Below, piece after piece: positions 25 to 12,685 of a stretch of DNA of 13,122 bases (within the stretch, counting starts at the first letter, position 1; each line of letters begins with the position of its first letter). The stretch covers positions 1 to 13,122 of the forward strand of contig JABIQT010001042.1 in NCBI GenBank assembly GCA_018667995.1. Direction: 5' to 3'. Made by a program: the position numbers and the translations under genes. The stretch is from Candidatus Latescibacterota bacterium (GTDB lineage Bacteria > JAAXHH01 > JABIQT01). A model generated the notes under the pieces. It saw nothing but the letters and a program-made list of their open reading frames with translations. It was not told the origin of the DNA and did no database searches.

Positions 25-1269
25 TCACATTTGATCGATAACTTCCAAGGCGCGATCAATTTCCAAGCGTGTATTGTAATGCACCGGACCAAGACGGGTA
101 AGCCCCCCCGACGCTCTCAAGCCGAGTCCATCGATCAAAGCTACAGCCAGATAATCTCCACAACGGGAGCCGATCTGCTGCGCTCCGAGGGCATTGGTGA
201 TTTCCTGGGGCGTACTGCCCTCTTTGCGAAAGGAGACGGTAGCCACTCTGTTTGCCATGTCCATCTCATCCGTGATACCGTAAACCTTGATACCGCCAAT
301 CGCCTGCAGCCCACCGATAAGATGCTGGGCGAGCTCCTGTTCATAGCCTCCCAGCACAGGCCATGCAGCCTTCAGTCTGGACCGACGGTCTGAGTTATCA
401 TCCGCGGCGCCGTAATCTACGCCCAACTGGGCAATATAATCTATGGCTGCCAGGGTGCCCACGAGACCCTCATAATTCTTCGTCCCAGGCTCCCATCGGG
501 TTGGCTGTTTCTCCAGACTCGGTCGTACGGTATAGGCTCTAAGTCGCCCCATTAACTCTCGTTTTCCGTAAAGAATCCCCACGTGGGGCCCGTAGAACTT
601 ATAGGCACTGCAAGCGAGAAAATCGCAGTCCAGTTCTTTGACGTCGATGTATCCGTGAGGAGCATATTGAACGGCATCGATGAATGTCCACGCACCTTTA
701 GCCTTGGCCATTTTGATAATGGCCGCCACATCGTTGATGGTCCCGGTTCCGTTACCGGCATGGCTTACGGCGACAAGTTTCGTCCGGTCGGTGATTTTCT
801 CCTGGGCGTCGTTAAGATCGATTGCATACGTCTCCGGATCAATATCGATCCAACGAACCGTCGCGCCGGCATCCTCTGCCATGAGTACCCAGGGACCAAC
901 GTTTCCATCGTGCTCCATGTGTGAAACAACGATTTCATCACCAGGTTTTATCTCATGAACAAGAGACCGGCTCAACAAGACCGTAAGCGATGTCATGTTG
1001 TTCCCGAATGCAATTTCATCGGGGTCAGCACCCAACAGGTCTGCCGCCGCTTGACGGGCTTCCTGGGCCATTCGCGTCACACGCTCTCCCGGACCATACG
1101 GTACCTCAGTGTTGACATTGTAATGTATGAGACATTCCGTTATCCTATCGATCACCTGCTGGGGGATTTGCGTTCCAGCCGGATTGTCCAGGAAAACCAC
1201 CGGCTTTCCGTCAACCGTCTCCTGCAACGCAGGAAATGCGCTTCGCACGGCTTCTACATCATATGACAT
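25..1269 (-). CDS. Class V PLP enzyme, cysteine desulfurase-like (VC1184-type)
   Basis: A fold-type I PLP enzyme of the aminotransferase class V superfamily, closest by eye to the cysteine-desulfurase-like VC1184 group; probably cytoplasmic. Positions here count from a GTG at 1275. The N-terminal FLDNPAGTQIP block is at 28-38, the histidine-containing SHMEHDGN block at 118-125, the PLP-nitrogen aspartate in FIDAVQYAPH at D200 with Q203, and the Schiff-base lysine in SAYKFYGPHVG at K226. The C-terminal loop reads RCGDYLAV (371-378), where SufS-type desulfurases have GHHC. Leucine aligns with the catalytic cysteine, so true desulfurase activity is doubtful; lyase, epimerase or aminotransferase chemistry is possible. 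I prefer the ATG at 1269 over the GTG at 1275, because GGAG at 1278-1275 lies 5 nt before that ATG and overlaps the GTG. This gives 414 residues. It is the fourth visible gene of the operon, 66 nt after the PhyH gene. The fold is secure; the substrate is unknown. Confidence 0.9.
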   Translation of the reverse strand: MSYDVEAVRSAFPALQETVDGKPVVFLDNPAGTQIPQQVIDRITECLIHYNVNTEVPYGPGERVTRMAQEARQAAADLLGADPDEIAFGNNMTSLTVLLSRSLVHEIKPGDEIVVSHMEHDGNVGPWVLMAEDAGATVRWIDIDPETYAIDLNDAQEKITDRTKLVAVSHAGNGTGTINDVAAIIKMAKAKGAWTFIDAVQYAPHGYIDVKELDCDFLACSAYKFYGPHVGILYGKRELMGRLRAYTVRPSLEKQPTRWEPGTKNYEGLVGTLAAIDYIAQLGVDYGAADDNSDRRSRLKAAWPVLGGYEQELAQHLIGGLQAIGGIKVYGITDEMDMANRVATVSFRKEGSTPQEITNALGAQQIGSRCGDYLAVALIDGLGLRASGGLTRLGPVHYNTRLEIDRALEVIDQM

Positions 1270-1274
1270 TTTCA

Positions 1275-1278
1275 CTCC
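1275..1278 (-). promoter_or_regulatory. Ribosome binding site that decides the PLP-enzyme start
   Basis: GGAG on the minus strand, followed by 5 nt and then an ATG at 1269. The GTG at 1275 shares its first base with this motif and has no SD of its own, so initiation at 1269 is favoured and the two extra residues are probably not made. Confidence 0.55.
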
Positions 1279-1335
1279 AGATCTTTACGTCTACATTGAT
1301 AATTTCATTGCGGCTGCGATGGTCTCTTCGCCTGC

Positions 1336-2166
1336 TCAGCGCCACAGATCCAAACCCAGCAACTTTCTTCCGAGATCGGTCAGACGCGCAGGCTCGCCAG
1401 GCTGTGGTTCCGGCCTTCTTGGATCACCTGGAAAATCGGCCGGTTTTCGGGCATGCCGCCACATGTCAATTCGTTCACTTCTCTTCGCTTCGTTATCCGG
1501 CTCGGCTGGGGTCATCAGAATATACTGGCTCCAGCGTGCGCGATTGGATGCATTCAAGCTGTTCCCATGGGGCAACAGGCTATTCCAAATAATCAGATCT
1601 CCCGCCCCTGCAGCAATTTGCTGAATTTCTAGTCCCGCAAGGTCAGGTTGATCTGGATTACGACCTGAAGGCTGGCCGGCGACCCACTCCTGGAACTGGC
1701 GATGAAAACCGGGGACACATTGAAAGCCTCCCTGGTCCTGCTCGGTATCCGTTAGGCACAACACGCCCTGAACCATCAGCTTATCTGGCGAGAGAGATGC
1801 CCCGAAGTCCCAATGAATCAGTGGCTCATTGAATCCAGAGGGTTTATCCGGCCGCTCCGGCGGCGTCATATTAGCTCGGTCAAACGAAACCCAGAGATCA
1901 GGAGTGCCCCATATTTCTGCAAAACTCTCATGAATCCGGGGATATTGACGATTGTCCCATAGCGCCTGGTGGTGATACATCTCTACGAACCCGAGTCGCC
2001 GGGCCGGTTCATGGTACCAAGTTGAAGGATCTTCCGGATCAACATTCAATACGGCAGACACAGCTTGGATCACAGAGATCAGGTTTTCTTCCGGCACTGC
2101 ATCGTGGACGATGACGTACCCGTTCTCATCCCAGCAGCGGCGTGCCTCAGGACTCAGGACAGACAT
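1336..2166 (-). CDS. Phytanoyl-CoA dioxygenase (PhyH) family protein
   Basis: A non-heme Fe(II)/2-oxoglutarate-dependent oxygenase of the PhyH family, expected to hydroxylate a small organic substrate using O2 and 2-oxoglutarate. The 276 residues are typical of bacterial members and show no signal peptide. The iron-binding facial triad is visible: H118 and D120 in IHWDFG, and H200 in LLPHGNS. R209 or R211 in NRARWSQY is the likely 2-oxoglutarate carboxylate anchor. The N-terminal block with WDENGYVIVHDAV (12-24) is a usual PhyH opening. The C-terminal 40 residues are proline- and arginine-rich and end in LTDLGRKLLGLDLW. The ATG lies 7 nt after the upstream oxidoreductase gene's stop, and an SD-like AGGGA overlaps that TAG stop, so translational coupling is likely. 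Bacterial PhyH proteins act on many substrates, so phytanoyl-CoA should not be assumed. Family secure, substrate unknown. Confidence 0.92.
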   Translation of the reverse strand: MSVLSPEARRCWDENGYVIVHDAVPEENLISVIQAVSAVLNVDPEDPSTWYHEPARRLGFVEMYHHQALWDNRQYPRIHESFAEIWGTPDLWVSFDRANMTPPERPDKPSGFNEPLIHWDFGASLSPDKLMVQGVLCLTDTEQDQGGFQCVPGFHRQFQEWVAGQPSGRNPDQPDLAGLEIQQIAAGAGDLIIWNSLLPHGNSLNASNRARWSQYILMTPAEPDNEAKRSERIDMWRHARKPADFPGDPRRPEPQPGEPARLTDLGRKLLGLDLWR

Positions 2167-2173
2167 GGCATCC

Positions 2174-3244
2174 CTACACGAGTTTCTTGATCTTCACTTC
2201 ATGCCCAGTGTCAGCAGATTCGTAGATTCCATTCAGGATCTGCTGCACCAGCAGGCCGTGCTCACCCGGAGCGTCAGAAGGATTGCCTGTCTGAACACAA
2301 TCTACAAAATGACGCAGTTTGTGTCTGAACTCATCCGTGTTCGGCAGAAATTCGGGGGAAAGGTTCACCATTGTGTCCGACTCATCTTTAAAGATCATGG
2401 GAGGATTGAACTGGCCGCCGCCCTTGTCCCCCATCAAGGTAAATGTCCACTCATCCTTACCGATGTGAGCGGCAAATGACGCCTCAACCGAAAGTGTCGC
2501 CCCGTTATCAAACCGGACCATGCCGACTGCCAGATCCTCCACATTGTATGACTTGTAATCCCAATTAGGCCACGAGCTTACTGTATCGCTGGGTTTGTCA
2601 CCTATATAGGTATAAGAACTCCCAAAGGCACTCACCGGCTGTGGCGATCCCATCAGATAGTGAGCGGCTTCAATCATGTGAACGCCAATATCAATCAGAG
2701 CTCCGCCACCCTGAAGATCTTTGCGTCCAAAAACACCCCAGTTTGGTATACCCCGTCGTCTCAAGGCCAGACATCTGGCATACATCACGTTTCCGAACTG
2801 GTCGTCGTCAATGGACCGCTTCAGCATCTGTGCCGCGGCCGAGAAACGGTGCTGAAACCCGATAACCAGAAGGCGCTTCTTCTTCCGCGCGGCCTTCACC
2901 ATTTCAGTGGCTTCAGCCGGTGACATGGCCATAGGTTTTTCTACAAGAACGTCTTTACCAGCATTCAAGGCATCCAAGGTGGGCTGATGGTGCATGCCAT
3001 TGGGTGTTCCTACTGTGACTGCTTGAAGATCCTTGATCTTCAGGAGATCCTTGTAGTCCGTAAAGCAATTTGAAAAACCAAATTGTTCGCTGCACAAGCC
3101 CAATGCGTCCTCGCTCACGTCCGCCACACCGACCAATTCTACGTCGTCCATTTCAGCCAGATACTTCATGTGATGGCGACTGATACCACCACCACCGATG
3201 AATCCGATTTTAGTCTTACGCTTCTTTGCTAACGTAACCTCCAT
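2174..3244 (-). CDS. Gfo/Idh/MocA family NAD(P)-dependent oxidoreductase
   Basis: A 356-residue dehydrogenase of the Gfo/Idh/MocA family, which oxidises or reduces hydroxyl groups on sugars, inositols and related compounds with NAD(P). The Rossmann motif is GFIGGGGIS at 14-22, preceded by a basic start (KKRKTK). The family EKP motif is at 102-104, with K103 the usual catalytic lysine. GGGALIDIGVHMIE (179-192) carries D185 and H189, the expected active-site pair. No twin-arginine or Sec signal is visible, so it is cytoplasmic. The ATG at 3244 has no clear SD upstream; GGAGG occurs just inside the gene but precedes no usable in-frame start. An out-of-frame 15-codon ORF (ATG at 3263) overlaps the start and may be incidental. 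It sits 44 nt after the C45 gene and 7 nt before the PhyH gene. Its likely job is to oxidise an alcohol made or exposed by its neighbours. Substrate unknown. Confidence 0.93.
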   Translation of the reverse strand: MEVTLAKKRKTKIGFIGGGGISRHHMKYLAEMDDVELVGVADVSEDALGLCSEQFGFSNCFTDYKDLLKIKDLQAVTVGTPNGMHHQPTLDALNAGKDVLVEKPMAMSPAEATEMVKAARKKKRLLVIGFQHRFSAAAQMLKRSIDDDQFGNVMYARCLALRRRGIPNWGVFGRKDLQGGGALIDIGVHMIEAAHYLMGSPQPVSAFGSSYTYIGDKPSDTVSSWPNWDYKSYNVEDLAVGMVRFDNGATLSVEASFAAHIGKDEWTFTLMGDKGGGQFNPPMIFKDESDTMVNLSPEFLPNTDEFRHKLRHFVDCVQTGNPSDAPGEHGLLVQQILNGIYESADTGHEVKIKKLV

Positions 3245-3288
3245 TGATTGTTTGGTTGACCATTTTTCTACCGTACTGGTTGTCCGGC

Positions 3289-4329
3289 TCAGTTTCGACT
3301 TACTTCATGTGTCTCCCAGGATCCCAGGCATCCATGCCCGCGGCGCACATGAAACAGCCGTTTGGATGGTTCAGCGATGTAACCTGAGATGGAGTGCATA
3401 TTTACAGCTCCGTGTCTACAGATGCCCGCCGGATCACCTTCATGATCGGCCAGAATGTCTTTGAGAACGTCGACTGTAATCTGCCCCCACGCTTCACGAA
3501 TCAAGACTCCAAGCCGGCTAAGTCGGGGGGCAGAGTCCGCTAACGAATGGGTTTCGAAATCGAGATACTCGGAAGTCAGGTAGTGATTGGTGTGTAGCAG
3601 GGCATCTTCGTGCGTGTCCTTGAACAGGGCGATTCCATCTGGACGCACCTCCACATCCCCAATGGATCCTTCACCATCCGCCAGCACCACATTGGCAGCC
3701 GAACACGTCCTATTTTCTCTGAGAAGGGAAACACAATCTCCCACCGTCTTCTGCTCCAACATGAGTCGCTTAAGTGGATAATGCGGTAGAGCGGGTTGCC
3801 ACGGGGCGTCGTACAACGCATTTGCGAAATGGGCAACTCCATGCTCATTCATCCCCGCATATCCGAGTTGACCCGCAAACGTGAACATAAGCGCGGCTGG
3901 CCTACCGTCATTCGGCTTTACCTTCAGCAGAATCGATACATCACCATACTCGGCCTCGAGATCCTGATTCTGTCCCGCCAATGGCCTGCCATCAGCTGTA
4001 GCCTCGCCCGACAGCGCAAATGCGGAACATCCACCTTCACGGGTTTTGGAGGCCTCCGCTCTCGCCTGGCACAGCAACGCCTCTTCGAATGATATGCGGG
4101 CTCCTTCAGCCAGTCCGCGCACCTCCTGAATGAAGGCGGGACTGAGCGCCTCCATCTGGGGAAGTATAGCCAGAGCATTGGCACATAAGACATCGCGGGA
4201 TTGCCCCGTTATCCGATCAATCCAGGATAGATATCTGTGTACCAGGTTTCCTGCTTGCTCTCCGTGTTGGTGGCCCATGGAATAGGCATCACCCGATACT
4301 TCTACCATTGGAAAGGATTGAGTGGTCAT
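3289..4329 (-). CDS. C45-family autoproteolytic acyltransferase/amide hydrolase
   Basis: A 346-residue Ntn-fold protein of peptidase family C45. The family includes fungal acyl-CoA:6-aminopenicillanate acyltransferase and insect Tan (beta-alanyl-dopamine hydrolase), which form or break amide bonds to small amines. The expected self-cleavage site is visible: REGGCSAFA, with nucleophile C101. Cleavage before C101 would give a chain of about 100 residues and one of about 246, as in the fungal enzyme. Other family marks are MGHQHGEQ (18-25), GQNQDLE (119-125, the usual NxDW-type loop), GYAGMNEHGVAHFANAL (156-172), HTNHYL (246-251) and the C-terminal GHGCLGSWETHE (331-342). There is no signal peptide, so it acts in the cytoplasm. 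It is the first gene of the minus-strand operon; its SD is weak. Whether it hydrolyses or transfers, and on which amine, cannot be read from the sequence. Confidence 0.88.
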   Translation of the reverse strand: MTTQSFPMVEVSGDAYSMGHQHGEQAGNLVHRYLSWIDRITGQSRDVLCANALAILPQMEALSPAFIQEVRGLAEGARISFEEALLCQARAEASKTREGGCSAFALSGEATADGRPLAGQNQDLEAEYGDVSILLKVKPNDGRPAALMFTFAGQLGYAGMNEHGVAHFANALYDAPWQPALPHYPLKRLMLEQKTVGDCVSLLRENRTCSAANVVLADGEGSIGDVEVRPDGIALFKDTHEDALLHTNHYLTSEYLDFETHSLADSAPRLSRLGVLIREAWGQITVDVLKDILADHEGDPAGICRHGAVNMHSISGYIAEPSKRLFHVRRGHGCLGSWETHEVSRN

Positions 4330-4610: not shown

Positions 4611-5933
4611 ATGAGGCGATTTTCCATACCGATGTTGCGAATATATGGATGTGTATTCGTATTGCTCGCCGTAGCGGCAACAAGCTCGGCCCAACGCCTG
4701 CCGGAATTCCCTGTCGCAGAACAGGGACCAGGGTTCGTTGTCATGGATCTGCTGACTACGCGCGGAGTCTCACCAGACAGTACGCGCGTTGATGTATACT
4801 ACCGACTATCAAACGACATCTTCACCTTCATAAGAAGCACGGGCGACAAATTCGTCGCCCACTATGAATTGTCTCTGTTGATCAATGACCGAGACGGATT
4901 TCAAATGCTTGGAGAGACGTACCGAGACTCTCTTGTAGCCGATACCGAGTTGGAGAGTCGCGTTACAGACAATAGTCAGGCACTCCTGTATTCCACGGCC
5001 CTCCCACCCGGCAAATACAATCTGGTCATGAATATTCTGGATGTGGAAACGAAGGATGAGGTCAACTTTTCCAGGCGATTCGAGGTACCCGATTATTTCC
5101 GGAATGAGTTGAGCATCAGCGATCTCCAATTTGCAGGATTGATCACGCCGGAGGACTCTGGAGATGCAAGCGAGTTCGGAGTCAATGTGGTACCGAATCT
5201 CGCCCGAGCGTACGGAGAAGATCAGACGCAGATGTACGTCTACTATGAGCTCTATACTACTGCGCCCCGTGCCTCCAAAAAGCCGCTCAAGGTAAAGTAC
5301 CGGATAAAGGCATCCAGTGGCAAAGAACAGCTGAAGGTCGAAGAAGAACTACCGCGCCAGGGCGGCACGGGGATCTATAGCCGCAAGTTTGAAACGAAAG
5401 GCTTCGCGCAGGGCGCCTACTCCCTTGAAATCGAAGTCCGTGACGAAGCCATAAAGAAATCGGCCAAGATGAAAGGGGTGTTTTATGTCAGCTGGAAATA
5501 CCTGCTTCCCCTTACTAGTGCCAAGAACTATAGAGAGATTCTTGAACAGATAAAGTATGTGGGCACTAAAGAGGAAATGAAGACTCTCGAGAATCTCAAG
5601 AAAAGCTCAAGCGATGAGCAGCAGGCGGCTCTGGTAGCCTTCTGGAAGAAGAGGGACCCCTCGCCCGAGACAGAGAAGAACGAGAATATGCTGATGTACT
5701 ATCGTCGCATTGATTTCGCCAACCAGAACTTCACGGCTGGAATAGGGAGCGGATGGAAAAGCGACCAAGGGCGTATATATGTGATATACGGCGCCCCTAC
5801 GGAGATTGAGAGAAGAAGTCTCGAGTCCGGCACACAACCGTTCCAGATCTGGCACTACGCCAACCTGGGCCGAAGCTTCTTATTCGTAGACTATGATGGA
5901 TACGGCAGATACGAGCTCAGCCGAGTCTACTGA
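4611..5933 (+). CDS. Secreted GWxTD domain-containing protein
   Basis: A 440-residue exported protein of unknown function ending in a GWxTD domain. The N-terminus has basic residues (MRRF), a hydrophobic core at about 11-23 and a likely signal peptidase I site after TSSA (A27). There is no lipobox in the right place; C14 lies inside the hydrophobic stretch. Residues about 35-295 are beta-rich, with alternating hydrophobic strands that suggest immunoglobulin-like or C2-like modules. About 300-365 is charged and helical. The signature GWKSDQGRIYVIYGAP is at 381-396, with a serine in place of the usual threonine, followed by the aromatic C-terminal block to Y440. SD TGAGGA lies 4 nt before the ATG. 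It is the first gene of the plus-strand run, 43 nt ahead of priA. The family is typical of FCB-type phyla and its molecular role is not established. Probably periplasmic or outer-envelope. Confidence 0.88.
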   Translation: MRRFSIPMLRIYGCVFVLLAVAATSSAQRLPEFPVAEQGPGFVVMDLLTTRGVSPDSTRVDVYYRLSNDIFTFIRSTGDKFVAHYELSLLINDRDGFQMLGETYRDSLVADTELESRVTDNSQALLYSTALPPGKYNLVMNILDVETKDEVNFSRRFEVPDYFRNELSISDLQFAGLITPEDSGDASEFGVNVVPNLARAYGEDQTQMYVYYELYTTAPRASKKPLKVKYRIKASSGKEQLKVEEELPRQGGTGIYSRKFETKGFAQGAYSLEIEVRDEAIKKSAKMKGVFYVSWKYLLPLTSAKNYREILEQIKYVGTKEEMKTLENLKKSSSDEQQAALVAFWKKRDPSPETEKNENMLMYYRRIDFANQNFTAGIGSGWKSDQGRIYVIYGAPTEIERRSLESGTQPFQIWHYANLGRSFLFVDYDGYGRYELSRVY

Positions 5934-8466: not shown

Positions 8467-9333
8467 ATGTCCATCGCTGTACGTGAGATCACATGCAAAT
8501 CAGCATTGACGAAGACGGGAGGATTCCTGTCTACGTACACGCATTCCATGCAGCCTTACAAGGGCTGTGTTTTCGGCTGCCCATATTGCTATGTGCAGGC
8601 ATTGCCGATACACCGCTATCATGGAGGTAGCTGGGGGCAGTACGTGGATGTAAAGGTCAATATCGCGGCGGTGCTTGCACGGGAGCTGGCAAGAATTCGA
8701 GACAAGGGACGTTCACTACGGGTTTTCATGAGTTCAGCGACGGATCCCTATCAGGGCAGCGAGGCCAAGTACGGCATCACTCGTAAATGCCTGGAAGCCT
8801 TCATCATTCATCAACCAGACCTGCTGGTAGTCCAGACGCGCAGCCCACTAGTAAGACGGGATCTTGACCTGATCCGGAAAATCAGGAATTGTGTGTTGAG
8901 TATGACCATCGAGACGGATGATGACTCGGTACGACGAAGCGTGACTCCTGGAACTCCGTCCATAAAGCACAGGTTGGATGTGCTTAAGATGGCTATGGAG
9001 GCAGGCATTACCGTTCAGGCCGCTGTCAGTCCCATGCTTCCCAACAATGCGACTCGTCTCGCGCAGTTGCTGGACACAAATTGCCACCGGGTCGTCGTAG
9101 ACACTTACTTCGATGGGGACGGCTCCGGCGGGAAACGTACTGAGCAGCTTGGAATCAGGGCACTTTACGATGAGCTAGGATATGCGAACTGGTACCATGG
9201 AGCCGCGCATATAGAGCTACTGGGCCACCTATCGGACGTCCTTGGCCCCGACAGAATAGTCTTCGGCAAAGAAGGCTTCAATTCGGCCGTTGAGATGATC
9301 AGTTTTCCAAAGGAGAATTGTGATCCCGGATGA
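8467..9333 (+). CDS. SPL-family (Rv2578c-like) radical SAM protein
   Basis: A 288-residue radical SAM protein of the group related by sequence to spore photoproduct lyase, often annotated Rv2578c family. The [4Fe-4S] motif CX3CX2C is C34-C38-C41 in YKGCVFGCPYCYVQ. Other group marks are the preceding THSMQPY (25-31), SSATDPYQGSE (89-99), QTRSPLVRRDLDLI (123-136) and SMTIETDDD (145-153). The residue equivalent to the hydrogen-donor cysteine of Bacillus SplB, some 40 residues after the cluster, is not evident. DNA photoproduct repair should therefore not be assumed, although the neighbour is priA. GGAG at 8453-8456 lies 10 nt before the ATG. Its last 35 bp overlap the opposing glycosyltransferase gene. 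The radical SAM chemistry is well supported; the substrate is unknown. Confidence 0.88.
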   Translation: MSIAVREITCKSALTKTGGFLSTYTHSMQPYKGCVFGCPYCYVQALPIHRYHGGSWGQYVDVKVNIAAVLARELARIRDKGRSLRVFMSSATDPYQGSEAKYGITRKCLEAFIIHQPDLLVVQTRSPLVRRDLDLIRKIRNCVLSMTIETDDDSVRRSVTPGTPSIKHRLDVLKMAMEAGITVQAAVSPMLPNNATRLAQLLDTNCHRVVVDTYFDGDGSGGKRTEQLGIRALYDELGYANWYHGAAHIELLGHLSDVLGPDRIVFGKEGFNSAVEMISFPKENCDPG

Positions 9334-10423
9334 GAATCCGCTCATATACCTCCATGGTACGTGCCGCCATTTCTTTTGCTCCATGATGGAGGTGGACGTG
9401 TGCGGAAGCCTTCGTGGCCAACCGCCTGGCAAGTTCCGGATATGTTGCGAGATCAAGAATGGCGTGGGCCAAGGCGCTGGGATTGTTCGGTGGGACGACG
9501 ATACCGTTGTCACCGTCGCGAATCACCTCTGAGATTCCGTTCACATTGGCACCCACGACGGGCTTTCCCAATGCCATGCCTTCAAGCAACACATAAGGCA
9601 TTCCCTCCCACAACGATGGTAGCGCTAACACGGTAAACAGGCTGTAAGCGCGAATGCTGTCCGGAATCCATCCCGCGAAGCGAACCACATCCTCCAAGCC
9701 GAGTTCCCGTACCCGGGCCTCGGCGCGAGTTCGCCATACCCCGTCGCCGACTATCACAAAGGGGATTTGGCCTTGTATCTCGTGAACAACCGCGGCTGCC
9801 TCGATGAATGCGAGAACGCCCTTCTGTCGGTCCAGGCGCCCTATGAATCCTACGCCTGAAAAGCCAGGGCTCTGGGGTTGCGCCTGCCATTCCTCCAGCG
9901 GCAAACCATTGGGAATCGTCTCAATGTTCTCTACCGAAAGTTTCAACCGGGAGATGCCGTATCTCCGATTGGCCTCACATACCGAGATCACGAAATTCGA
10001 ACGATGACAAATGAAACGCTCAATGAGACCATAGAACCAGGAGGCTCCAAACCGATCATCCCTATTGCCTCTGGTTGCATGCAGGGTGTATATGCACGGG
10101 ATTTTTGATATTCGGGCAGCAAGGACACCTATAAAACCAGCCCGGGTACCATGGGCGTGCATTAGTTCAATTTCACCTGACCTGATCGCCTTCACAAGAC
10201 CAATGAGCGACCACGGCAGTCGATACCAGCACATCATATCGACCGGTACTATCCTCGTGTGTCCCTGGGCAAGCAGTGTTTCGAATATACCACCGGCAGT
10301 ACAGGCTACCACGGCACGAATCCGTGCGTAATCCAGGTATCTCAAAAGGTACCCCAGGTGCTGGGGACCTCCGCCAATATCAGAGTTATTGATGACGTAC
10401 AGAATTTTGATTGGTGTGCTCAT
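9299..10423 (-). CDS. GT4-family glycosyltransferase
   Basis: A 374-residue GT-B glycosyltransferase of family GT4, predicted to transfer a sugar from a nucleotide donor to a growing surface glycan at the cytoplasmic face of the membrane. The N-terminal acceptor half opens with IKILYVINNSDIGGGPQHL (5-23), with HAHGTRAGF at 89-97. The donor half has GVGFIGRLDRQKG (190-202), FVIVGDGVW (222-230) and the EX7E motif at E273 and E281 in LWEGMPYVLLEGMALGKPVV. The start is 15 nt after the stop of the tandem glycosyltransferase gene, so they are co-transcribed; the SD is weak. The 3' end runs 35 bp into the convergent radical SAM gene. Donor and acceptor sugars cannot be told from sequence. Confidence 0.93.
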   Translation of the reverse strand: MSTPIKILYVINNSDIGGGPQHLGYLLRYLDYARIRAVVACTAGGIFETLLAQGHTRIVPVDMMCWYRLPWSLIGLVKAIRSGEIELMHAHGTRAGFIGVLAARISKIPCIYTLHATRGNRDDRFGASWFYGLIERFICHRSNFVISVCEANRRYGISRLKLSVENIETIPNGLPLEEWQAQPQSPGFSGVGFIGRLDRQKGVLAFIEAAAVVHEIQGQIPFVIVGDGVWRTRAEARVRELGLEDVVRFAGWIPDSIRAYSLFTVLALPSLWEGMPYVLLEGMALGKPVVGANVNGISEVIRDGDNGIVVPPNNPSALAHAILDLATYPELARRLATKASAHVHLHHGAKEMAARTMEVYERILIRDHNSPLEN

Positions 10424-10438: not shown

Positions 10439-12685
10439 TTAGGATATTCTGTTATAGACCTGCTGAACCTGGTCTACCATCCGGTCCATTGTAAAGTCAC
10501 GTTCGACTGCCTCGCGGGCTGCCTCGCCAATGTGTTGCCTGCGATCTTCGTCGTCCAGCAATGCGACGATCGAGCGCGTCAACTCTTCGCGATCGTCTGG
10601 AGCCACAAGAATCCCCGTAACTCCATTCTCGGTGATGATCTCGCGGATGCCACCAACGGAGTACGCAATTACAGGTTTGGCCATAGCCATGGCCTCCGTT
10701 ACCACCATACCGAATGCCTCTCCCAACGACGGCACGATGACAACGTCGAGCGTCCTGAGAATCCTGGGTATATCCTCCTGAAAGCCCAGTAGCCGCACAT
10801 ATATGTCGAGTCCTCGGTCGTGTATGTACTGCTCAAGATGAGACCTTAGAGAGCCTTCACCAATCAGAAGCACCGTTACCGCCGAAGCTCGTTCGACTAC
10901 CTGTGGAAGTATCTCAAGAAACGCACGCTGGCCTTTTTCTATCTCCAGACGCCCGAGTACCCCTATCAACCGGTTTGACTCGGGAATATCCCATTCTCGC
11001 ATGACAGCACTCCGCGCCTCCTCCGTCAAATCAGATCCGTGTCTGAACCTATCCACCTCTATGCCTGGATGAATAACTGATATCTGGCCATCGGGCAGCC
11101 CTAGTCTCTGTAGCAATTCGTCAGCCACGGAATGGGATACCGCAATGATAGCATCAGACTTGCGTAACATCACGCGATCGATGGAGAAACGAAAGGACCT
11201 GGACTTTGCCTGTTCGGTCTGAGCCTCCAGATGCCTGTGTACCGTCGCGATACGTTTTAGTCCTGAAACGAACCAGGATGCGAGCCATCCATACAGATTG
11301 CCCCTGCGATCATGGGTCTGAAGCAGCCAGGGGCGCTCCTGGCGCAAGACTCTGACAAGTCGGATGAGACCATGTATATCGAAGGGGTGGTTCAGGGTGA
11401 CCGTACGCGTACGAATTCCGGACGCCCTCATTATCATGGCGGTGTGACCCTTGTTACATAGCGCGGTAACGTCCTCGCTTTCCTTGAGACGGCTTAACAG
11501 ATCACAGGCCAATCGCTCGACGCCTCCAACTGTCGCGCCCACGACCAGATGGCAACTTCTCGTTCGCCCTCCGGTTTTCCAGCTCTTCTGGAATATCTCT
11601 TGAATCTGAGACGCGCGCTGATCCCAGGAGTGTGCAAGAACCCGATTTCGTCGGGCCCGGGCAAGCACAGGCGTATTATCGCACAAGGCGGCAGCTATCT
11701 GCAAAGAGAAGTGTTCAGAATCGAGACCAATGTATACCTCCCCGCCGAAACTGAGAGCCGCGGGAAAATCCGTAGAGACCACGGGCTTTCCAGACGAGAG
11801 ATAGTCATACAGTATGATGGGATCCGAGTGCGCGATATGTCGATTCGGAATGAATGGTAAAAGGCAGACGTCAAGACAACGGATCAGACTGGGAAGTTCA
11901 GCATAGGGCCTTCTTCCCAAAAGCCTGATATTGGGCAACGATTCGAGGCGTGCCTCGTCCTTTTTGGCTTTTACAGGGCCGATCAGAACAAGCGTCCATT
12001 CCGGATGATTCGTGGCCACATTCATGAGTAGCTCAATATCAACCCACTCGTAGATGGCGCCGACGAAACCGATGAGTGGTCCGCGCTCATCGCGGAGTTC
12101 TTCAGATAGTGGTCCATTTTCCGTGAAGTGAGATGGATCCCCACCGTCCTTTACCAGAAACACCCTATCCCGGGCACAGATCTGACTGGCCTTTTCATGG
12201 AGAGCCGGGCTGAGAGTAAGTACAACATCAGCACGCTCAAACACCTCTGTTTCCATGGCGCGGATAACGCTCCTCCGTCCGAGTCCACTGAACGATTCGT
12301 GATCGTCCATACAATCATAGCAAACCATGCGCTCCTGGAAACAGCCGATAAGTGCACCGGCCTGAGGTTGATTTATCCAAAGAACGGGATCGGAAAACCC
12401 AAGCTGTCGTACGTACTCGGAAACGCGGCGAGCGACAATTCGGTAGGCCAATCGGTTTAGCGATGGCACCATATTCTTCAATGGGGGTGTGAGAGGCGGT
12501 GTGCACCCGTGGATATTCGGCGCTAATTCCCGTATACCCTCGTCTCTGAGCCCCTTAAACCTGTTGAGGGAATAAGGAGGATCGACAAACAGAATTCGGT
12601 GAGATTCGGCAAGCCTCGTAATCAACTGCTGCGGCCGTTGCCAGAGGAAATCCCAGTCTACCGATCCAAAATAGATGATGTCCAT
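10439..12685 (-). CDS. Two-domain fused glycosyltransferase (GT-B + GT4)
   Basis: A single 748-residue chain holding two glycosyltransferases. The N-terminal one (about 1-368) opens with WDFLWQRPQQLITRLAESHRI and VDPP (11-37), the start of TuaH-like GT-B proteins. It has IGFVGAIYEWVD (205-216) and DPIILYDYLSSGKPVVST (288-305), where D294 replaces the usual glutamate. After a short linker (about 366-376, KSWKTGGRTRS) a full GT4 enzyme begins at HLVVGATVGGVERLACDLL. It continues with QTHDRRG (456-462), IGVLGRLEIEKGQ (574-586), VTVLLIGEGSLR (603-614) and EX7E at E656 and E664. No frame break is visible at the junction. An AGG lies about 6 nt before the ATG. It follows the flippase gene by 80 nt and precedes the single GT4 gene by 15 nt. 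It probably adds two sugars in succession to a surface polysaccharide repeat; the sugars are unknown. Confidence 0.93.
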   Translation of the reverse strand: MDIIYFGSVDWDFLWQRPQQLITRLAESHRILFVDPPYSLNRFKGLRDEGIRELAPNIHGCTPPLTPPLKNMVPSLNRLAYRIVARRVSEYVRQLGFSDPVLWINQPQAGALIGCFQERMVCYDCMDDHESFSGLGRRSVIRAMETEVFERADVVLTLSPALHEKASQICARDRVFLVKDGGDPSHFTENGPLSEELRDERGPLIGFVGAIYEWVDIELLMNVATNHPEWTLVLIGPVKAKKDEARLESLPNIRLLGRRPYAELPSLIRCLDVCLLPFIPNRHIAHSDPIILYDYLSSGKPVVSTDFPAALSFGGEVYIGLDSEHFSLQIAAALCDNTPVLARARRNRVLAHSWDQRASQIQEIFQKSWKTGGRTRSCHLVVGATVGGVERLACDLLSRLKESEDVTALCNKGHTAMIMRASGIRTRTVTLNHPFDIHGLIRLVRVLRQERPWLLQTHDRRGNLYGWLASWFVSGLKRIATVHRHLEAQTEQAKSRSFRFSIDRVMLRKSDAIIAVSHSVADELLQRLGLPDGQISVIHPGIEVDRFRHGSDLTEEARSAVMREWDIPESNRLIGVLGRLEIEKGQRAFLEILPQVVERASAVTVLLIGEGSLRSHLEQYIHDRGLDIYVRLLGFQEDIPRILRTLDVVIVPSLGEAFGMVVTEAMAMAKPVIAYSVGGIREIITENGVTGILVAPDDREELTRSIVALLDDEDRRQHIGEAAREAVERDFTMDRMVDQVQQVYNRIS

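Follow-up and report, generated by a model that had tools for sequence, protein, structure and literature searches.

The DNA considered here, a stretch of 13,122 nucleotides (nt) from a Candidatus Latescibacterota bacterium (contig JABIQT010001042.1; hereafter the window), possesses at one end a compact run of four enzyme genes, which an original prediction had taken for an operon encoding a four-step pathway on one amide-linked small molecule. The window is an entire contig (C347) of the fragmented assembly G000 (6.06 Mb, 1,165 contigs, ~85% complete). Its four complete open reading frames (ORFs), all on the minus strand between 4329 and 25, follow one another in the order C45-family hydrolase (C45), Gfo/Idh/MocA dehydrogenase (Gfo), PhyH-type oxygenase (PhyH), and class V pyridoxal phosphate (PLP) enzyme (Table 1). 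They are separated by 44 nt (C45/Gfo), 7 nt (Gfo/PhyH), and 60 or 66 nt (PhyH/PLP), depending on whether the PLP gene starts with GTG at 1275 or, possibly, with ATG at 1269; its end lies 25 nt off the contig edge. ORF calls, profile searches, and ortholog alignments bore out the four intact same-strand genes with the order, spacing, families, and active-site residues originally described, apart from a trivial inconsistency in that the 66-nt gap had been counted from the ATG and Lys226 from the GTG. The single promoter candidate proposed ahead of the run carries no weight, as promoter-like sites numbered 5 in the window versus 4.0 in shuffled sequence; likewise, terminator-like sites (4 versus 4.1) occurred at chance frequency, and neither Rfam families nor tRNAs were found in the window.

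Table 1. Genes of the four-enzyme run and the divergent gene that marks its chromosomal position
Feature	Position	Strand	Remarks
C45-family N-terminal nucleophile (Ntn) hydrolase/acyltransferase (AAT, PF03417; NF040521)	3289..4329	-	predicted autoprocessing at Cys101
Gfo/Idh/MocA dehydrogenase	2174..3244	-	closest solved relative DgpA; EKP Lys103, Asp185, His189
PhyH-type Fe(II)/2-oxoglutarate oxygenase, YbiU/GIG2-like fold features	1336..2166	-	H118, D120, H200
TIGR01976 class V PLP enzyme, Fgm3-like	25..1275	-	Lys226, Tyr225, Tyr228, His122; no desulfurase Cys
GWxTD-domain protein	4611..5933	+	divergently transcribed; marks conserved chromosomal position; context, outside the four-gene run

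We compared the run across 16 genomes of the home phylum including G000, 12 of which form one group (g3); neighbouring genes were called with a simple ORF picker, which may miss small genes, and fragmented assemblies can hide linkage. Two members of the run occur throughout, as C45 was present in single copy (66-77% identity) and Gfo as one close ortholog each (71-78% identity) in 16/16 genomes. In the loci examined, the Gfo ortholog adjoins the divergent GWxTD gene, the layout of the site being such that GWxTD, PriA, and usually a radical SAM (rSAM) gene point away from the locus, with Gfo on the other side. C45 and Gfo are neighbours in four of the 16 genomes, all of one clade (the window, G013, G011, and G001). 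In G001 (L030:7950-8777), an HpcH/HpaI aldolase gene sits between the two, and a second Gfo/Idh gene follows. In the g3 genomes, C45 lies away from the Gfo site, beside AddAB-like nuclease genes or ornithine cyclodeaminase; several of them carry it directly after the cyclodeaminase gene (L032:6335-8387), others after the nuclease genes.

Gfo and PhyH are neighbours, with PhyH after Gfo, in 13/16 genomes, namely the window and all 12 g3 members. A PhyH search matched every home-phylum genome, and a tree split these matches into ortholog and paralog clades: the window, G011, and the 12 g3 proteins cluster in a single clade that excludes the paralogs, the G011 ortholog being located elsewhere in its genome, away from Gfo, and G001 and G013 possess only a paralog, which groups with a copy on G000 contig C83 and with a second phylum. 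In three genera (L078:517-3880, L079:1808-5441, L077:121-3059), this paralog has conserved neighbours of its own, among them a molybdopterin-oxidoreductase/pentapeptide-repeat protein. Several g3 loci (L072:9759-13421, L071, L073, and others) carry three tandem LacI-type regulator genes immediately past Gfo-PhyH and oppositely oriented to it, in some genomes followed by an amino acid permease gene. The PLP gene was found in the window and in G013 and was absent from 14/16 genomes; scanning contigs with the PLP protein returned one locus (L027, G013 contig C301), a separate contig without the other three genes, where its neighbours are a xylose-isomerase-like gene and another that has no assignment.

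We also compared a second phylum, represented by 64 genomes around G296 and with linkage judged in a subset of all loci. Orthologs of Gfo were present in 31/64 genomes, C45 in 30/64, and PhyH relatives in 41/64, all PhyH rows placed on the tree falling into the paralog clade; PLP was found in 0/64 at E <= 1e-100, in a search without a positive control inside that phylum. In the loci examined, C45, Gfo, and the PhyH relative are spread over separate contigs or widely spaced; for instance, G419, a single-contig genome, carries C45 at 1.79 Mb, PhyH at 5.70 Mb, and no Gfo ortholog that passed the threshold. Furthermore, C45 and Gfo are distributed independently (15 genomes with both, 16 with Gfo only, 15 with C45 only, and 18 with neither; Fisher p = 1), in a test with thresholds of 1e-120 and 1e-60 on incomplete assemblies that counts related genomes separately. 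Gfo shares no common partner there; its neighbours include DUF6807 in some genomes, a ceramidase-like protein, and a class III aminotransferase accompanied by E1 subunits.

Thus, with PLP in only two of the 16 genomes, no shared set elsewhere, and C45 and Gfo independent of each other in the second phylum, a four-step pathway on a single amide-linked molecule is not supported. The four families were adjacent in 0/15 other home-phylum genomes and unlinked in the second-phylum loci examined, so the full set does not co-occur beyond close relatives, an outcome that the original prediction had itself named as speaking against it. Its operon fared better in part, as the pairs C45-Gfo and Gfo-PhyH recur and make an operon plausible, while the full set, or even the first three genes, occurs nowhere else examined. 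We consider, with moderate confidence, that the run is a lineage-specific gene set at a stable site by the divergent GWxTD-PriA-rSAM genes rather than a conserved four-enzyme pathway. Its constant member is the DgpA-like Gfo/Idh protein, which C45 and PhyH accompany in some lineages, and PLP is private to this genome at the site. The case shows how readily a neat run of enzyme genes gets taken for a pathway; here, ortholog synteny together with phyletic independence split the partly conserved pairs from the private four-gene layout.

The constant dehydrogenase matched both domains of its family (PF01408 and PF02894), and K103, D185, and H189, the Gfo/Idh/MocA catalytic set, are invariant across 16 orthologs. 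Its best solved relatives are DgpA proteins (PDB 7xr9, 9m3d) at 188-195 bits, the next best reaching 101 bits. Both share the stretch RRR..P.WGVF..K..QGGG.LIDIG.H, and thereby a common catalytic and substrate-side motif, although the C-terminal part of the window protein aligns poorly to DgpA and its gene was not seen to have a C-deglycosidase (DgpBC) partner next to it. DgpA is a glycoside 3-oxidoreductase; it acts on C- and O-glucosides, which it oxidizes at C3 in a ping-pong mechanism with nicotinamide adenine dinucleotide (NAD; PMC11239390). Most probably, then, Gfo is a DgpA-like sugar or glycoside dehydrogenase, a prediction that represents the best-grounded step of our working model. 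C45 scored 216 bits with NF040521 (cut-off 85), and its nucleophile Cys101, after the predicted processing site, is invariant in 16 orthologs, which characterizes it by sequence as an Ntn amidohydrolase or acyltransferase with predicted autoprocessing. The nearest solved relative is acyl-CoA:isopenicillin N acyltransferase (PDB 2x1d), likewise a C45 proenzyme with an Ntn cysteine; the alignment covers most of the chain, but it is a weak match of 59 bits, and C45 lacks a penicillin context. Both the DgpA-like dehydrogenase and the C45 hydrolase, each universal and single-copy in this small, PhyH-rich phylum, are useful leads.

PhyH scored 58 bits with PF05721 (cut-off 22), and its HxD...H iron triad (H118, D120, H200) is invariant in 15 orthologs. 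An AlphaFold model built from 37 sequences reached a predicted local distance difference test (pLDDT) score of 88.8, versus 36 when the 15 close orthologs were used alone. With this model, Foldseek placed TlxI/J, SnoK, and SptF on top, and VIA-align gave YbiU (Z 21.1; 253 residues, 3 A) and GIG2 (20.5), followed by SnoN (18.5) and TlxJ (~18.5). Furthermore, the Gig2-like/DUF1479 profile (PF07350) was matched by 14/15 PhyH orthologs at E <= 0.01 (best 4e-8). PhyH thus resembles YbiU/GIG2 in the triad and, in the predicted model, in the fold (Z 20-21), but differs in length (276 versus ~400 aa) and in scoring 19.9 bits with the Gig2-like profile, below its cut-off of 27, while exceeding that of PhyH. 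Judged from the model, the clade would lean closest to the YbiU/GIG2 group, itself unsolved, and this leaning is a further lead; the pathway of YbiU in E. coli is unknown (PMC8464067). A PDB search with PhyH as a single sequence gave no match at E 0.01. A role in 2'-O-methyl nucleoside demethylation of the PHYHD1 type, demonstrated for a poribacterial enzyme (PMC12709175), found no specific support, since PHYHD1 was matched with the broad 37-row profile and not with an ortholog profile.

Taken together, the locus is most likely, as far as homology can tell, a modified-sugar or glycoside dehydrogenase locus with changing partners, where some lineages keep C45 before Gfo, others a PhyH/GIG2-like oxygenase after Gfo, and G000 alone both, plus PLP. 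The DUF6807 genes next to some second-phylum Gfo orthologs and the LacI regulators at the g3 loci agree with this reading. We infer co-transcription of the four genes, as well as the substrates and the order of the steps. Gfo would use NAD to oxidize a ring hydroxyl on a sugar or glycoside, at C3 by analogy with DgpA; PhyH might hydroxylate or oxidatively dealkylate related substrates; C45 could hydrolyze an N-acyl group; and the PLP enzyme, whose gene would be a late addition to the site, may act independently of these steps on an amino acid.

Several points weigh against the interpretation of the run as a lineage-specific set with changing partners. The adjacency of Gfo and PhyH in the window and 12 g3 genomes exceeds rearrangement noise, and spacings of 7-66 nt would suit a functional unit. 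In favour of the interpretation, the C45-Gfo arrangement requires one change on a PriA tree and therefore may be one evolutionary event, but the tree, having no outgroup, would leave the direction of gain or loss unfixed. Moreover, the synteny of C45 and Gfo may reflect background conservation, because GWxTD, PriA, and rSAM share that segment and are conserved as well. Finally, the sugar substrate is drawn from similarity, and Gfo/Idh specificity often diverges.

A rather unlikely alternative, yet one deserving attention, is that the four genes are fortuitous neighbours, each with its own role, in a genome where PhyH and Gfo genes abound. G000 contains ~154 PhyH and 82 Gfo/Idh matches in 6.06 Mb, a PhyH expansion resembling that reported for Poribacteria (PMC3909097), and by a rough count a PhyH neighbour occurs at 8/82 Gfo genes versus ~5 expected randomly (4,500-5,500 genes); therefore, PhyH-Gfo neighbours are by themselves unremarkable in G000. 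The independence of C45 and Gfo in the second phylum and the different company of C45 in g3 point the same way, whereas the orthologous adjacency of Gfo and PhyH, in the same order and strand and with short gaps in two families of the phylum, argues against chance.

The PLP enzyme bears on the remaining alternatives. It scored 448 bits with TIGR01976 (cut-off 352), and K226 is kept in the sole ortholog found (G013). Among solved proteins, FGM3 scored best (195 bits), and the PLP enzyme shares with it a stacking His122, the PLP-lysine region SxYKxYGPH (Tyr225-Lys226-x-Tyr228-Gly-Pro-His), the HYNT segment towards the end, and the lack of a desulfurase Cys. Fgm3 cuts the Cbeta-Cgamma bond of 4-hydroxyarginine, made by a cytochrome P450 (P450), to give alanine and a second product, in a fungal pathway that also includes an amidohydrolase (PMC10967133). 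Its proposed base is a tyrosine (PMC10367076); Tyr225 and Tyr228 are both present in the window enzyme, the numbering of Fgm3 Y225 not being exactly matchable to the PDB chain. The window gene differs in having no nonribosomal peptide synthetase or P450 context.

These likenesses, along with the tight spacing of the four genes, would suit a genuine pathway of four enzymes that only this lineage has, analogous to the fungal fgm route. In it, PhyH would place a hydroxyl on the gamma carbon of some amino-acid derivative, the PLP enzyme would split the product by a retro-aldol reaction, yielding alanine plus an aldehyde, the dehydrogenase would oxidize a product, and C45 would open an amide. However, SufS-type enzymes score nearly as high as FGM3 on the PLP protein (182 versus 195 bits), and Gfo resembles a sugar dehydrogenase, not an aldehyde dehydrogenase. 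Such a pathway is improbable because PLP is linked to PhyH in G000 only and G013 has PLP without this PhyH ortholog. We give even less credence to a bolder version, a bacterial hydroxylate-and-cleave pathway where a PhyH/GIG2-like oxygenase, in place of the fungal P450, supplies an Fgm3-like PLP lyase, the two being coupled to a sugar-type dehydrogenase and the C45 amidase on one amino-sugar or amino-acid derivative. Least credible is a sulfur-mobilizing cysteine desulfurase unrelated to the other three genes, for although SufS-like profiles reached 240-250 bits and PADLOC SspA/DndA ~133 bits on the PLP protein, the SufS/IscS curated cut-offs were far from reached, Leu376 takes the place of the catalytic Cys of RxGHHCA, and Tyr, not His, precedes the PLP lysine. 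We rejected this role for want of the catalytic Cys; on the window, PADLOC returned generic class V matches only.

Elsewhere in the window, a gene for a 748-aa protein (10439-12685), in which two glycosyltransferase group 1 regions were matched, adjoins a second glycosyltransferase gene, of the GT4 type (9299-10423), which overlaps the end of the convergent radical SAM gene by 35 nt.

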